Positions 32,697-53,267 of a stretch of 64,000 nt of DNA are shown here, piece after piece. A program made the position numbers and the translations under genes. Below the pieces are notes generated by a model. That model did not search any database and was not told where the DNA came from. It saw nothing but the letters and a program-made list of their open reading frames with translations. Source of the stretch: Cellvibrio sp. PSBB006 (lineage in GTDB: Bacteria > Pseudomonadota > Gammaproteobacteria > Pseudomonadales > Cellvibrionaceae); NCBI RefSeq assembly GCF_002162135.1, contig NZ_CP021382.1, positions 3,408,001-3,472,000 of the forward strand. The letters are read 5' to 3'. How positions within the stretch are numbered: position 1 is the first letter of the stretch; each line of letters opens with the position of its first letter.

Positions 32697-33749
32697 TTAA
32701 CATATCGTTAAAATACTTTTCTTGGTGTTATCTGCATCGATAACCCTAGAAAACCAGCTCAATAATTTTTCTTTTATCACCATTAGATCAGTAGCTAAAC
32801 TAAACTCTTCTAAAATATATCGGGAATCTCTGCAAGTTATTTCAAACTCGCTAATAGGTGGTTCAAAAAGAAGTTCAGATAAGTAGGCTTGGGATTTTTG
32901 CTTACGGTCAAAAACCAAAAATTTCCATCCGGTCGGCGAAATGTATAGATCAAATGCTATTGAATGACCCGAAAGTACAAAATCATGAACCAGACAAGAT
33001 TTTGCATATATCCATTTTTTACATTCTTTCTGTTCGCCAATAATTCCTGAAAGATCGCTTACTTTTGAATAAAGTTTTGACATAAATTTATTTCTTGCAT
33101 TCAGCAAATCATCAACTCTTTTATGATGCTCTATAAAAAATTGATCAAGCTCATCTAATTCCATATTCTTACCTGTGAAGTTTTCCATGCTGCTCATAAA
33201 ATCCAGAAGGTAAAGAAGCCATTTTTGAGACGATTTACCGGCATAGAGGCCAAGACGCTGCCTTATTTCAGCTATAAAATTTTTGTAGGTTATCCCAACA
33301 AACCCGTTATCAACGGCATGAGCCTTGATGCTAAGAACAATTTTAACGGGCGATAAGTCTTTTTTAACAGATAATTCATCTATCGTGCTGCTGTAATCAT
33401 AGAGATCATTTCTTAGCTCGTGGAATATTTTGTTCTCTATTCCTATAAGCTGGTTATCTGTTTCAATCAAAAGATCTAATCTGCCACCTTTATTTGTGGA
33501 ATATTCGCGATAAACCTGAAAATTTCCTTTGCTTGAATCGTCACTTTTGGCGAGGTTCATTAGTGAAGAGAACAGCAGGTTTCCCAAAGCATGTTCATTA
33601 TTAGGATTTAAATAGAAAGCAAGAATATTACTGAATACATTTTCATAATGGGGATAGCCAGCTACATCAAATATACTTTCACTTTCGGATATAGTTGGAA
33701 GCGCTTCAAAGTCATGAAGCACGGCTAAAAAATTTTCAAAACTGTCCAT
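32697..33749 (-). CDS. PD-(D/E)XK superfamily nuclease
   Basis: The ATG at 33749 gives 350 residues. The N-terminal pattern YENVFSNILAFYLNPNNEHA and the core GGRLDLLIE...LIGIENKIFHE place Asp92, Glu105 and Lys107 in the PD-(D/E)XK metal site, of the PDDEXK_4 type found in defence and mobile loci. The C-terminal half is unrecognised and may give specificity. It overlaps the upstream 69-residue gene by 14 bases and is followed by a 104-residue gene after three bases, making a tight three-gene operon of AT-rich DNA. Confidence 0.78.
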   Translation of the reverse strand: MDSFENFLAVLHDFEALPTISESESIFDVAGYPHYENVFSNILAFYLNPNNEHALGNLLFSSLMNLAKSDDSSKGNFQVYREYSTNKGGRLDLLIETDNQLIGIENKIFHELRNDLYDYSSTIDELSVKKDLSPVKIVLSIKAHAVDNGFVGITYKNFIAEIRQRLGLYAGKSSQKWLLYLLDFMSSMENFTGKNMELDELDQFFIEHHKRVDDLLNARNKFMSKLYSKVSDLSGIIGEQKECKKWIYAKSCLVHDFVLSGHSIAFDLYISPTGWKFLVFDRKQKSQAYLSELLFEPPISEFEITCRDSRYILEEFSLATDLMVIKEKLLSWFSRVIDADNTKKSILTIC

Positions 33750-33945
33750 ATAGCTGACGACCTTCTTGATGATACTCCTTTTCACCACTTTCATAGCGGT
33801 TATATTCACATATTGCTACTTGCTTGCCGACCTGCAAAATAATTTTTTGACCCGCTGAGTCTCTAACTTCATCCGTTTTAGAAAGCAGAACTAGATCCTT
33901 GTTCATCAGTTCATTGAAGTCTACTTTGGTTCTTGGCTTGTCCAT
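33736..33945 (-). CDS. Small basic protein, first gene of the nuclease operon
   Basis: 69 residues (begins MDKPRTKVDFNELMNKD), high in Lys, Glu and Asp, with no recognised domain. A weak GTGAG lies before the ATG. Its 3' end overlaps the nuclease start by 14 bases, which supports real translation and coupling. It could be a small regulator or immunity-type component; unknown. Confidence 0.6.
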   Translation of the reverse strand: MDKPRTKVDFNELMNKDLVLLSKTDEVRDSAGQKIILQVGKQVAICEYNRYESGEKEYHQEGRQLYGQF

Positions 33946-34343: not shown

Positions 34344-35216
34344 TCAGGCGGACATTTTTTCATAAGCCGATTCAAAATGATTCGGACTTTTGTAGCCCAA
34401 TGTGCTGTGTCTTCGGTGACTGTTATAAAATAGTTCGATGTAATCAAACACGCAAGAATACGCTTCTTTCTTCGTGGTGACATCCTCGGCATAGAGCGCT
34501 TCAACTTTAAAGCGGGCGAAGAACGATTCCATCGCGGCATTATCCCAACAATTGCCTTTACGACTCATGCTAGGCCGAATCTTCTCGTCGAGCAATAGCT
34601 GCTGATATTCCCACGAACGATATTGCACTCCGCGATCCGAGTGCAAGATCAAACCGGGCTCTACGTCGCGCGAAGCAACCGCCATCTTAAAGGCATCTAT
34701 GATCAGTTGGTTAGTCATCGTAGTGTCGAGTGACCAGCCAATGATTTTGCGTGAAAACAGATCCATGATAACCGCGAGGTAAACAAACCCTTTTTCTACT
34801 TTTATGTAGGTGATATCCGACACCCACTTTTCATTCGGCTTGCTTGCCTGGAAGTTACGCCGCAGCAGGTTGCCGCTGACATGGTTCCGGGCTAATACAT
34901 CAGGGAAGTACTTGTAACCTTCTCCATTTCTCGCCATAAGTCCTTGTTTGGCCATCAGTTTTGCCACGGTGTTTTCACTGATGGGCAATCCGCACTCGTT
35001 CAACTCGACGGTCATGCGTGGCGACCCGTAGCGAGATTTAAAACGCGTAAACAGGTTAATCAGGAGGCGCTCTGCCTCAAACCTTCGCAACTCAGTATCA
35101 CTGGGCCTACGGCAGCGCCATTTGTAATAACCTGATCGGCTGACGTGTGCCCAGTGGCACATTTTCATCACGGCATGCTCACCACGCAATGACTCAATGA
35201 GGGCGTACTTCACCAT
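34344..35216 (-). CDS. IS3-family transposase OrfB (DDE integrase catalytic part)
   Basis: 290 residues. N-terminal HTH_21 region (ALIESLRGEHAVMKMCHWAHVS, about 5-60) and rve integrase core with the DDE residues: WVSDITYI, LILHSDRGVQY and the downstream Glu in NAAMESFFARFK. It appears intact. Produced mainly as OrfAB fusion by frameshift, see OrfA; its own ATG overlaps the OrfA stop. Confidence 0.93.
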   Translation of the reverse strand: MVKYALIESLRGEHAVMKMCHWAHVSRSGYYKWRCRRPSDTELRRFEAERLLINLFTRFKSRYGSPRMTVELNECGLPISENTVAKLMAKQGLMARNGEGYKYFPDVLARNHVSGNLLRRNFQASKPNEKWVSDITYIKVEKGFVYLAVIMDLFSRKIIGWSLDTTMTNQLIIDAFKMAVASRDVEPGLILHSDRGVQYRSWEYQQLLLDEKIRPSMSRKGNCWDNAAMESFFARFKVEALYAEDVTTKKEAYSCVFDYIELFYNSHRRHSTLGYKSPNHFESAYEKMSA

Positions 35217-35527
35217 TTGTCTTTGCTGAAGTACGCGGTCGCCTTTTTTAGAAATTCGTTCTCTTCTTTTAGATCCGAGATCTGCCGCTTCAGTTTGCGG
35301 ATTTCTTCGCTCTCGCTCATAGAGTAATCCACCCCTTGGACGCTATTAAACTGCTTGTCGGACAATCGTTTGTATTGTCGACGCCAGTTATAGATTTGGC
35401 CGGGGTGAATTCCGAGTTCTTTCGCTACCTCGGCAGCACTGGTGCTGGGATCGTCCGCGCGGCGAACAGCTTCCCGACGAAAATCCTCAGTGTAATGGTT
35501 GTACTTGTTTCGCGTTTTCTTTGGCAT
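35210..35527 (-). CDS. IS3-family transposase OrfA (helix-turn-helix part)
   Basis: 105 residues: HTH about 10-55 (YTEDFRREAVRRADDPSTSA, ELGIHPGQIYNWRRQYK) and a leucine-zipper-like coiled coil about 70-100. Near its end the minus strand reads CTA-AAA-AAG, an A6G slippery run; a -1 shift there keeps an open frame straight into OrfB. The coding and shift signals are complete, so the element may still be active. Confidence 0.92.
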   Translation of the reverse strand: MPKKTRNKYNHYTEDFRREAVRRADDPSTSAAEVAKELGIHPGQIYNWRRQYKRLSDKQFNSVQGVDYSMSESEEIRKLKRQISDLKEENEFLKKATAYFSKDKW

Positions 35528-49430: not shown

Positions 49431-50183
49431 ATGGCCAATAACTGGAAAGAAGACGAGCTCCTGCTAGCACTGCATTTATACTGTCGCCTACCTTTCGGAA
49501 AATTGCATCAATCCAATCCGGATGTTATCCAGCTTGCCCAAATCATTGGTCGAACGCCATCTGCGGTGGCGATGAAGGCCTGTAATTTTGCCAGTCTCGA
49601 TCCTGCGCTCAGTCAAAAAGGTTTGGCTGGCGCAAGTAAAGCTGACCGCGCGTTGTGGGATGCTTTCATGAATGACTCCACGGCAATTGCCGAGCAAGCA
49701 GAGGCGCTATATGAAAACAAGGTTGAGTCCGAGATAAATAAAGGCGTTACTAAACCGAGCCTTCCTGGCGGTACAACTGAAACGATACGGGAAGTTAAAG
49801 TCCGACGAGTGCAGCGATTTTTTAGGCAGGCAGTCATGCAAAGCTACGATTATCGTTGTGCCATTTCGGGATTGGCAATGCCCGAGCTGTTGGTTGCTAG
49901 CCATATCATCCCATGGGCTGCAAACGAAAAACGTCGTGCGGACCCTACCAATGGGATAGCATTAAACGCGCTCTATGATAAAGCCTTTGATAAGGGCTTG
50001 ATAACGTTCGATGAAGATCTAAGAGTGACGTTATCAGGCAGGCTGAAGGAAAAGATGGATGGATTCTTATTTTCAAGTTCTTTGTTATCCATAGAAGGCA
50101 CTTCATTAAAAGTGCCGGAGAAATTTCTACCGGACAATGCCGCATTAACCTACCACAGAGAAAATATTTTCCTTGCATCCTAG
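49431..50183 (+). CDS. HNH endonuclease-like protein
   Basis: 250 residues. The N-terminal part resembles a Myb/HTH-like DNA-binding segment (WKEDELLLALHLYCRLPFGK ... IIGRTPSAVAMKACNFASLD). The C-terminal HNH_2-type nuclease core reads YDYRCAISGLAMPELLVASH, then IIPWAANEKRRADPTNGIAL with CXXSG in place of the second zinc Cys pair, and LYDKAFDKGLITFDED. This pairing is common in restriction-like and mobile genes. It stands alone; no methyltransferase is adjacent. Confidence 0.85.
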   Translation: MANNWKEDELLLALHLYCRLPFGKLHQSNPDVIQLAQIIGRTPSAVAMKACNFASLDPALSQKGLAGASKADRALWDAFMNDSTAIAEQAEALYENKVESEINKGVTKPSLPGGTTETIREVKVRRVQRFFRQAVMQSYDYRCAISGLAMPELLVASHIIPWAANEKRRADPTNGIALNALYDKAFDKGLITFDEDLRVTLSGRLKEKMDGFLFSSSLLSIEGTSLKVPEKFLPDNAALTYHRENIFLAS

Positions 50184-50519
50184 CTCTGTTTTTTTCCTAG
50201 TTTCTTAAGCAAACCTATCCAGCAAATTTATAATTGCCAATCGTTGAGTTGAATTAAGCTTCGGCCATATTTTATTGATGGTTTGTAATTCATCTTCTAT
50301 TTTTACCGCATCATTTTGGCTGCTTATTTTATTGATTGATTCGGCTTGTAAGTCGATATCTTTAAAAAACCAGGAACTTCCCCCATACTTAGGACGATAG
50401 TTAGTAATAATCAACAAAGTACAACTCTTGGAAAGCTTCGTGACTGGCTTCTCCCCATGCTAATGAGCGGCCAAGTTACCATCACCTCATCCACTCAGCC
50501 GAAAACAGCGGAGGCTAGT
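50184..50519. other. AT-rich gap with a possible gene remnant
   Basis: 336 bases between the HNH and Doc-partner genes. On the minus strand 50205-50450 is an open frame of about 80 codons without ATG (contains TNYRPKYGGSSWFFKDIDLQ and a Leu-rich tail). It reads like protein but is cut by a stop at its 5' side. It may be the 3' remnant of a lost gene. Confidence 0.35.
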
Positions 50520-51533
50520 ATGGCCAAAGACCTCACGGAATCGTCCCACGACCGCCAAAACATTCTCAACAACCGCTATGCCTTACAGCAGGCTGAGCAG
50601 CACCTAAGTTTGGGCGGGGTAACCTTTGAAGGTGAGACTGTGTTTACCAAGGCACAGGTGGTGGCGCTCTATGAGGTGGCAGATCGTACTATTGAGCGCT
50701 ATTTAGTCAGCCATGAGGATGAGCTAAAAAGCAACGGCTATCAGTTACTTAAGGGTAAAAAACTTAGGGAATTCAAAGTGTTAACTGATGGTTCCGACAC
50801 CAATGACGGTACCAAAACCAGTGTTTTGGGTGTGTTTAGTTTTCGTGCAGTGCTGAATTTGGGCATGCTACTCACCGAGAGCGAGCCGGCGCGCCTATTG
50901 CGCTCGCGGTTGCTGGATATTGTGCTGGACGTGATGGCCGAGCGAACAGGAGGGCACACCAAGTTTATTAATCAGCGTGATGAGAACTACTTGATCTCTG
51001 CGCTGCAAGAAGATAACTACCGTCGCCAATTCACCGATGCACTCGATAACTATGTTGAAGGCAACCATTGGAAGTATGCGCGTTTTACCAACCTGATCTA
51101 TCAAAGCATTTTCCATGAAAACGCCGCCGAATATAAAAAGGTCTTGAACTTAGCGTCCAAAACCAATATCCGCGAAACTCTATACTCCGAAGTGCTGAAC
51201 CTGATTGCTAGCTACGAATCAGGTATTGCTCATGAGCTGGAGGAAGCCAGCACAACCCAAGGCCGCAAGCTCACACAAAAGGAAGCCGAAAGCTTGTTTG
51301 CCAATTTTAAAAAACATCCTCTATTCAAACCTCTGATACTGGATGCGCGAACAAAAATGGCGAGCCGAGATTTATGCTTCCGCGATGCACTGCATGAAAA
51401 ACTGGAGGCCTACATTCAGTCTGTACCCCAAGCTGATTTTGATCGCTTCTTAGGTGAAAAAAGCAGGTCTTTGGAGGAACAACTAAGCGATCCCGCAACT
51501 CTCGCGGTATTTAAGCGCTTGAAGGATCGCTAA
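50520..51533 (+). CDS. Large DNA-binding-type partner of the Doc toxin
   Basis: The ATG at 50520 follows GGAGG by six bases; the in-frame ATG at 50457 does not have one. 337 residues, no signal peptide. The N-terminal part looks like a helix-turn-helix region (TVFTKAQVVALYEVADRTIERY, about 45-65). The rest is helical and acidic, without a recognised family name. It ends one base before the Doc gene. By position it is the antitoxin or regulator, but it is several times larger than usual Phd antitoxins. Confidence 0.7.
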   Translation: MAKDLTESSHDRQNILNNRYALQQAEQHLSLGGVTFEGETVFTKAQVVALYEVADRTIERYLVSHEDELKSNGYQLLKGKKLREFKVLTDGSDTNDGTKTSVLGVFSFRAVLNLGMLLTESEPARLLRSRLLDIVLDVMAERTGGHTKFINQRDENYLISALQEDNYRRQFTDALDNYVEGNHWKYARFTNLIYQSIFHENAAEYKKVLNLASKTNIRETLYSEVLNLIASYESGIAHELEEASTTQGRKLTQKEAESLFANFKKHPLFKPLILDARTKMASRDLCFRDALHEKLEAYIQSVPQADFDRFLGEKSRSLEEQLSDPATLAVFKRLKDR

Positions 51534-51534
51534 A

Positions 51535-52008
51535 ATGACGGGTTCAGATAACGGCATCCGCTATTTTTATTTCGATGTGATGCACGCGATCTCTGTGCAC
51601 GATTGGATTATAGAGAACTCTGGTGGTCTTGCAGGCACCAAGGATATTGGCCAGCTGGAAAGCCCACTACAACACATCCAGAACGACTGGTACTACCCTG
51701 AGGTGGAAGACAAACTCACGCACTTAGTGTTTTCCATCAATAAGCATCACGCATTTAATGATGGCAATAAACGCTCGTCATTAGCGTTGGGCGCTTATTT
51801 TCTTGAACTGAATGGCTTCGATTACCTGGTAAAGCGCTTCACTAAGGAGATGGAGAATATAGTCGTTTGGGTGGCCGACAATGTAATTAATAAAGATCTG
51901 CTTCATCAAATTATTAGCTCAATTCTCTATGAAGAGGATTATCCAGAAGCAGTAAAACTCGCCATTGTGGCGGCCATTCAGGCTGCCGAGCAATTGAAAC
52001 AAGACTAG
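51535..52008 (+). CDS. doc: Doc-type (Fic-fold) toxin
   Basis: 157 residues. The catalytic signature HHAFNDGNKRSS (HxFxDxNKR) is complete, and the N-terminal DVMHAISVHDWIIENSGG with GLAGTKDIGQLESPL matches the death-on-curing family. Doc proteins modify translation factors by phosphorylation. Coupled with the preceding 337-residue gene (one-base gap). One base after its stop lies the start of a reverse-transcriptase pseudogene, so all three were once an operon. Confidence 0.88.
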   Translation: MTGSDNGIRYFYFDVMHAISVHDWIIENSGGLAGTKDIGQLESPLQHIQNDWYYPEVEDKLTHLVFSINKHHAFNDGNKRSSLALGAYFLELNGFDYLVKRFTKEMENIVVWVADNVINKDLLHQIISSILYEEDYPEAVKLAIVAAIQAAEQLKQD

Positions 52009-52009
52009 G

Positions 52010-52776
52010 ATGATGGGATACAAAGCGCAGTTTGATGGATGGGATTCATTAACTATTGAAGATTTGCTAGTTGCTTATCGAAAGGCGAAAGCAGATTTTT
52101 TTGAAAATACGTTTCCTAGCGCTTTTAAGTTTGCTGAGTATGAACAAAAACTGATAACCAATTTGAAGAAGCTGCTAGTGCGACTGCAAGAGCAAAATGG
52201 ATTTGAAAAAGATAAAGCGTTTTTGGGTGATTTCCGTCTATTACCGAAGAAACTTTCAACAAAAAGAAATACAAATCATCATCAAATGGTCATGTTCACT
52301 TCTCCAATCCAGAACGGGCTGTCGATCATTTATTCAAAAATTATCATGTGGTGCCCGAATTCCGCATAGTGTGATTTCTCTGTAGAAGCACATATAATTT
52401 CAGCGCTATGGATAAATACCATAGGTCACAAGTTCGATGCGAAATTAGAAGACTGTTGTTATGGCGCACGATTAAAGCGCGTCAAAAAACGACGATATGT
52501 TTTCTGATGAAGAGGAAAAGCCATTTCATATTAGTTCTATTGGGTCTTTTTGACCCTACTTCCAGCCCTATCAAAAATGGCGTGGGGATGGGCTTAAATC
52601 AATTCGCGACGAACTCGAGAAAAATCGCGATATTATTGCCGTATCTCTAGATTTAAAAAGCTACTATCACTTCATTGATCCTGCCGCACTAGCAAGCCCG
52701 GAGTTACCTAAAGCCCTAGCTTTGGAGCTGTCGAAAGAAGAAATTGAATTTACTACCCAGCTGTCCAATTGCTTAA
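52010..52776 (+). pseudogene. Broken defence-type reverse transcriptase gene
   Basis: Coding similarity continues through changing frames: 52010-52287 (YKAQFDGWDSLTIEDLLVAY ... FRLLPKKLSTK), 52288-52367 (GHVHFSNPERAVDHLFKNYH, VPEFRIV), 52382-52485 (VEAHIISALWINTIGHKFDA) and 52488-52776 (KPFHISSIGSF, then TGA at 52551, PYFQPYQKWRGDGLKSIRDE, DIIAVSLDLKSYYHFIDPAA). The last segment is RT motif A. These are hallmarks of a group of bacterial reverse transcriptases related to antiphage (UG/Abi-like) enzymes. Three frameshifts, a stop and loss of everything from before YxDD make it non-functional. Confidence 0.7.
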
Positions 52777-52879
52777 AAAATCTATTCCCACCGTTATCAT
52801 GACCAGTGGTGGCTATTCAAAAGAGTCTTATCAACTTATTGCAGCGTTGGCGAGTTATTTAATTAACACCAGCGATTAA
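52748..52879 (+). pseudogene. C-terminal remnant of a histone-deacetylase-fold protein
   Basis: A 43-codon open stretch ends at TAA 52877-52879 and contains SIPTVIMTSGGYSKESYQLI followed by AALASYLINTSD. The 'P-x-V-x-M-TSGGY-...-LIA-S-L' pattern is that of the last strand and helix of class IV/AcuC-type deacetylases. It has no start of its own; the reverse-transcriptase remnant runs into it in another frame, indicating a deletion that joined two genes. The family call rests on a short motif. Confidence 0.4.
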
Positions 52880-53267
52880 GGAGAGGAACTTGTGCTTTTT
52901 TATTGGCATAAATAACCGCCACTCACTCCCACCAAAACCACATCCTTCTACCTCAAAAACGCACAAAGAAATCAGATAATTTTTAATTACATATCAAAAA
53001 TTTTTCATAAGAAAAATTGGCGCAACCTGTTTATTTGCTAACGCTTTCCCAACCAAAAAACAATCACGCAATCCTAGTTTCAAGAACCAGTTTGCTTTAT
53101 GAATGCGTTGTCGTCTTAATCAATATCCATATTAGCATATTATATTGACAATAAATTTGGCCACGGATATATCACCAGCTTCGAATTCGTCAGTCAGTTT
53201 CCGTAATCAGCAGTCGTCTGGCGCTCGATCAATTTATGACGGTTGATTATTCAGGAGGTCATGTTCA
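52880..53267. other. Intergenic region upstream of the large GH11 gene
   Basis: 388 AT-rich bases. It holds the promoter described next and no coding sequence. The left part shows long A/T runs without a clear terminator. Confidence 0.5.
53145..53173 (+). promoter_or_regulatory. Sigma-70 promoter of the multi-modular GH11 gene
   Basis: TTGACA at 53145-53150, a 17-base spacer and TATATC at 53168-53173, giving a leader of about 90 bases. Same -35 box and spacing as the promoter of the smaller GH11 gene at 26905. Confidence 0.78.

Follow-up and report, generated by a model that had tools for sequence, protein, structure and literature searches.

An intact M59A-Doc pair within the probable remains of a restriction and reverse-transcriptase operon in Cellvibrio sp. 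PSBB006

Results

We analyzed a 64,000-nucleotide stretch of Cellvibrio sp. PSBB006 (NCBI RefSeq assembly GCF_002162135.1, contig NZ_CP021382.1, positions 3,408,001 to 3,472,000; hereafter the window, with coordinates counted from its first nucleotide), in which a broken reverse-transcriptase (RT) gene had originally been predicted to follow a Doc toxin gene and to run into a deacetylase-like tail. The locus is likely what is left of an operon with the gene order HsdRMS-M59A-Doc-RT, now stripped at both ends with its M59A-Doc pair intact, and the operon was likely one of virus defense. We hold this anatomy and history of the locus with high confidence. Our full reading is tentative: these remnants of an HsdRMS-M59A-Doc-UG5 RT operon would carry, as their intact pair, a Fic/Doc toxin and a predicted DNA-damage-binding partner that restrains it until restriction or phage attack leaves the DNA broken.

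The M59A-Doc pair and the HsdS remnant

M59A (50520..51533, + strand; 337 amino acids [aa]) and Doc (51535..52008, + strand; 157 aa) are both intact. They match the PADLOC profiles PDC-M59A (1e-107) and PDC-M59B (1.5e-33), respectively, and lie adjacent to each other, as PADLOC defines its candidate system PDC-M59. Doc belongs to the Fic/Doc family (TIGR01550, 48.5 bits against a cut-off of 38.65; Pfam Fic, 2.3e-12), and its motif HAFNDGNKR aligned with the catalytic motif of P1 Doc (3k33). M59A is 83%–88% identical to the proteins of three other loci (L073, L086, and L113) and shares its start codon at 50520 with them; open reading frame (ORF) calling puts the start at 50457, inside the HsdS remnant described below. 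Searches of NCBIfam and Pfam gave M59A no Phd-type antitoxin name. Against four relatives, nonsynonymous divergence (pN) was 0.066–0.105 for M59A and 0.103–0.117 for Doc, far under the synonymous divergence (pS) of 0.66–0.69 and 0.77–0.84, which is near or at saturation, indicating that both genes are constrained. M59A likely restrains Doc.

Directly before M59A, and in frame with it, lies a C-terminal remnant of the type I restriction specificity subunit HsdS (50412..50516, + strand). These 35 aa are 63% identical to the HsdS of L073 (E = 1.9e-8, with the whole window searched) and match the HsdS of L086 and L113 too. They are all that is left of a type I restriction-modification (RM) set that is complete in L073 and others; the HsdR and HsdM of L073 had no match in the window. 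Going by this remnant, the operon of the original prediction was incomplete, as type I restriction genes belonged to it too.

The predicted fold of M59A points toward DNA damage. DdrC, a DNA-damage protein of Deinococcus radiodurans, ranks first for the predicted models of two M59A homologs, and residues 26–275 of M59A have the same predicted fold and domain order as DdrC (a winged helix plus a helical bundle). M59A is thus predicted to share the DdrC fold. It differs from DdrC in having ∼60 extra C-terminal residues and a Doc partner, and an M59A profile (23 rows) matched no PDB sequence up to E = 10, DdrC included. DdrC is not known to have a role with a toxin. We also considered M59A as a RhuM protein, a candidate left unsupported by a single comparison with a RhuM-like protein, so named by our own reading (probability score 0.2).

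The reverse-transcriptase remnant and its deacetylase tail

Past Doc lies the remnant of a UG5 RT-nitrilase gene (52013..52775, + strand), which covers residues 1–256 of ∼1067, changes frame three times, contains one TGA, and lacks both YxDD and the nitrilase part. Three-frame translation of 52000–53000 recovered every string quoted in the original prediction and, likewise as predicted, the frame changes (between 52270 and 52291, between 52371 and 52376, and at about 52485) and the TGA (52551–52553). The gene had been called a defense-type RT, and its in-frame pieces indeed align in order to RT_UG5-nitrilase, a PADLOC profile of 907 positions (PDLC03780), at positions 9–96 (E = 1.6e-20), 113–150 (3.5e-15), and 161–231 (2.3e-22). 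An extra 24-residue piece had no match in this profile search, and no piece received a name from Pfam or NCBIfam. The pieces align to residues 1–256 of the full-length L073 RT. As predicted, the cut falls before YxDD: the YVDD motif, present in relatives L003–L005, occupies residues 315–318 of the L004 protein, past the break at residue 256. A nitrilase-type match was seen in L115; the nitrilase part likewise lies past the end of the remnant. By alignment, the RT start moves from the ATG one base after the Doc stop to the second ATG, at 52013, four bases after that stop. The window RT is accordingly the leftover first quarter of a UG5 RT-nitrilase gene and not a working member.

The breakage looks recent, as the five window pieces are still 68%–75% identical to the L073 RT, and the L073 and L086 RTs, both open over this part, share 74% identity over 250 residues. 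Elsewhere in the same genome (L001), the sole match to the family RVT_1 is a different RT, in a 516-aa frame (C1:4746856-4747287); RVT_1 missed the window remnant.

The RT remnant is joined to the C-terminal remnant of a deacetylase-like, PF00850-related gene (52776..52879, + strand), probably via a deletion. The tail frame comprises 42 residues (52751–52876) and matches genes in two out of 20 congeners, one in G012 (77% over 35 aa, E = 5.9e-12) and one in G010 (67%, E = 1.2e-10), which are themselves 33%–34% identical to a PF00850 protein (L061). A Pfam search of the isolated 42-residue tail recognized no family; its homology to the HDAC superfamily was confirmed through the PF00850-related gene of G012, so that the predicted deacetylase-like tail proved to be a true deacetylase C terminus, with the catalytic part missing. 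The join is clean: similarity to the RT stops at 52775 (against L073) or 52778 (against L086), abutting the start of DNA similarity to the G012 gene, which runs from 52776 to 52863 at 77% identity. We rejected the idea that the tail is a portion of the RT protein itself, as the RT loci held no match to it.

According to the original prediction, a toxin–antitoxin pair, the RT, and perhaps the deacetylase had formed one four-gene defense module, and in the window Doc, RT, and deacetylase sequences do stand in one row on one strand. We consider such a module highly improbable. Three deacetylase proteins used as queries had no match in any of the 46 UG5 and 34 M59A loci, RT, M59A, and Doc had none in 28 deacetylase loci, and both congeneric genes that share the tail sit elsewhere. 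The deacetylase is therefore better read as the probable far side of the deletion that joined it to the RT than as a member of the operon.

An exchangeable slot between restriction genes and the RT

The part of the prediction that linked Doc to the RT was borne out by the 46 UG5 loci, which came from one genome-contig scan with an alignment of three RTs and whose ORFs were clustered and laid out. M59A, Doc, and RT follow one another in that order in three of the 46 (L073, L086, and L113), with the RT a few bases past Doc, and the remnant locus L183 adds a further case; none of the 46 held a deacetylase match. The order seen in the window thus recurs in other genera. In L113, PD-T4-4 A and B precede M59A-Doc.

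In 17/46 UG5 loci, a run of type I hsd genes continues into the RT without a change of strand; this clustering found no such hsd run in the remaining 29. One of the 17 (L074) is without an identified HsdS, and in another (L116) the RT match is short only. What stands in the slot directly before the RT varies: M59A-Doc in three (L073, L086, and L113), Kiwa in seven (L074, L075, L079, L080, L098, L099, and L104), an ATPase that weakly matches PtuA and AriA in three (L072, L078, and L101), and nothing in four (L097, L111, L115, and L116). PADLOC was run on the KwaB of L075 and L074, the KwaA of L098, and the ATPase of L072, and the other slot genes were assigned by cluster.

The middle cassette is freely exchanged between the outer genes, as seen from near-identical outer genes that enclose different cassettes and from the changes of slot type on the RT tree. 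L072 and L073 are 94% identical in HsdR, 92% in HsdM, and 96% in the RT (37% in HsdS), and their cassettes differ, with the ATPase in L072 and M59A-Doc in L073. The L074 RT is 95% identical to that of L073, yet L074 carries Kiwa, and its type I system is a different one (HsdM 26%). On the tree, built from the window RT and 42 of the 46 others (L112, L113, L116, and L117, under 200 residues, were dropped), slot type needs eight changes over 16 labeled rows and six over the 13 rows with a cassette (nine under an earlier labeling). A search for the KwaB of these loci in 41 family genomes returned 0/41, a zero that shows nothing as there was no positive control.

Some RTs are cut short in other loci as well. 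The L113 RT match ends after residue 88, the RT frames stop at codon 508 in L104 (a Kiwa locus), 28 in L116, and 35 in L117, and those of L086 and L089 stop at 916, both near contig ends. We had considered preferential RT decay beside M59A-Doc and rejected it on recount: loci that lack M59A have short RT frames too, which leaves no special bond between M59A-Doc and RT decay.

Six loci, including L078, L079, L099, L101, and L113, carry a gene of 66–72 aa of helix-turn-helix type (cluster f6), mostly just before HsdR, which might be the operon's regulator. Compared as a candidate for RptR, its sole PDB match, to other XRE proteins, was weak. The RT was also considered as phage cargo, and viral contigs scanned with its alignment yielded no confirmed relative. 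A plasmid scan for the RT returned 10 records, two of them from E. coli at 72%. On one E. coli plasmid (L182, 10001-13210), a UG5 RT that is annotated as a hypothetical protein and is 72% identical to L004 adjoins an AbiE toxin–antitoxin pair.

M59A loci beyond UG5

We sampled 368 other genomes of the class and 397 of the phylum for M59A and found it in three of the former and, fragments included, in 10 of the latter, with one genome in both sets; it was present in 0/56 close relatives. Six of the loci were complete with flanks (L178, L179, L180, L216, L217, and L218). RM genes contain or adjoin five of these six, type I in L179, L180, and L217 and type III in L216 and L218 (the latter two assigned via 37%–42% similarity to Pfam-confirmed genes of L202), with none at L178. 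A UG5 RT was found in 0/6. Among 22 viral-contig loci, RM genes adjoin M59A-Doc in L188 and L189 (one record), L190, L194, L196, and L202; L183 retains the remnant of an HsdS, L192 matches type III genes weakly, and no RM match was found in the rest. On an Ilyobacter plasmid, M59A-Doc is placed after a type III system.

Doc accompanies M59A in 32 out of 38 loci; the exceptions are four with a partial M59A (L201, L204, L220, and L221) and two that end right after M59A (L186 and L195). L183 mirrors the window, with an HsdS end, M59A, Doc, and then RT residues 23–136. The single viral record of L188 and L189 carries M59A-Doc twice, near both ends, each copy between HsdS and HsdR. In L221 (6601-8946), HsdRMS and a PDC-S06 gene are followed by the first ∼70 residues of an M59A, 86% identical to that of L073; by its gene order, L221 is a case in which one cassette replaced another and a stub of M59A stayed behind.

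Surroundings of the locus

Directly upstream of the HsdS remnant lies an HNH endonuclease gene (49431-50183, + strand) that matches a PADLOC HNH model (4.4e-93), with an NCBIfam PT-DNA_restrict match under cut-off. Xylanase genes adjoin the locus (Pfam). A 357-aa protein (32700-33770, − strand) matches the PADLOC candidate PDC-S26 (1.4e-83) and is a further candidate defense gene in the window, and two ORFs at 34344-35527 (− strand), judged by reading of their frames, resemble an IS3-type transposase pair. The acquired region could not be delimited: five GH11-bearing congener loci hold another gene upstream of the GH11 gene and showed no DNA match to the stretch left of the window's GH11 gene.

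Discussion

Position, predicted fold, and family suggest a way in which the pair might work. M59A would neutralize Doc, acting as both keeper and sensor. The signal would be ends or nicks in DNA, arising where the restriction enzyme cuts phage DNA or where nucleases of the phage attack that of the host. Broken DNA would alter M59A and free Doc, and the freed toxin would modify a translation factor, as P1 Doc does, and stop the infected cell. The RT-nitrilase, where intact, would form a further, separate abortive layer. We regard this break-triggered mechanism as doubtful. In the window, everything in the operon that preceded the hsdS end has gone, the RT is joined to the deacetylase gene by an apparent deletion, and the pair has stayed open. 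The broader proposal is unlikely: M59A-Doc would be a suicide switch of restriction operons, in which a DdrC-fold protein gripping cut DNA controls Doc, and the slot a socket that exchanges this switch, Kiwa, or the ATPase between the restriction genes and the RT-nitrilase. If M59A does bind broken DNA, this would explain why the pair recurs beside restriction genes.

Two further explanations deserve consideration. M59A-Doc could act autonomously in abortive infection, triggered by something other than DNA breaks or restriction. The operon would then be a set of separate defense systems under shared transcription, in which M59A-Doc, Kiwa, and the ATPase are interchangeable cassettes. The varying slot of the hsd-linked UG5 loci favors this, as does the listing of the pair by PADLOC as a candidate system. 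It is also favored by two Streptococcus satellite phages (L175 and L176), in which M59A-Doc stands beside an integrase without RM; these weigh against a purely RM-driven trigger. However, Kiwa and the ATPase do not show the predicted DdrC-like fold through which M59A is tied to DNA, and RM genes at five of the six complete genome loci are more than free combination would suggest, although the background was not counted. An autonomous system of this kind is a real possibility, short of probable.

The pair could instead be a plain addiction module that stabilizes restriction loci and mobile elements, with no defense trigger, and that outlives its neighbors since cells cannot lose it. Doc is a protein of the death-on-curing family, the pair occurs in plasmid-like and phage-satellite records, and both in the window and in L183 it is intact between decayed flanks. 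That survival is no proof, however, given the RT frames cut short elsewhere, the Kiwa locus L104 among them. Phd-type antitoxins are, moreover, far smaller than the 337 aa of M59A, with its predicted DdrC-like fold. We consider addiction alone rather improbable. In these loci a single operon unites type I restriction with an exchangeable third system and a defense-class RT, and the cassette swaps between near-identical outer genes amount to a natural experiment on which defenses cooperate.

Comparison with known systems

UG5 RTs with a nitrilase have already been classified, according to the available part of PMC8934634; they are class 3 defense-associated RTs, with DRT1 as a relative. The window remnant fits the UG5-nitrilase profile over the first quarter only, and in its nitrilase part the full-length L073 RT has a sequence match to DRT1 (9yfd; E = 1.3e-6). 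DRT1 requires both activities and acts abortively, as stated in the accessible portion of its paper (PMC13275509), whose DRT5S/L are presumably UG5 proteins; that portion does not mention the hsd-to-RT context.

A parallel to the placing of the pair is DarTG2 in the RptR island, where a toxin–antitoxin pair also stands right after the hsdS of a type I operon. The available text (PMC12255303, 2025) describes this embedding, terms the site after hsdS a potential recombination hotspot, and names no reverse transcriptase, Fic, or Kiwa; here, in contrast, the pair is M59A-Doc, the gene order is another, and the RT comes last. Doc and RhuM-like genes were reported in 2013 in RM neighborhoods together with PrrC/RloC and a multi-level defense was proposed, as far as the accessible part of that paper goes (PMC3710099). 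The likeness lies in Doc-family genes inside RM operons; there, however, they are linked to HEPN nucleases, and M59A, the UG5 RT, and the slot go unmentioned in that part. Among the papers listed by our literature searches, no title or abstract beginning described M59A-Doc-RT or the hsd-to-RT slot; a preprint on embedded defenses, known by citation alone, may cover PDC-M59.

Both intact genes of the window match PDC-M59, which PADLOC lists as a candidate without a mechanism. To that entry we add the operon with hsd genes and an RT, the exchange of the slot, and the DdrC-like predicted fold, and the break-triggered release of Doc, if true, would be the first concrete mechanism for a PADLOC candidate.
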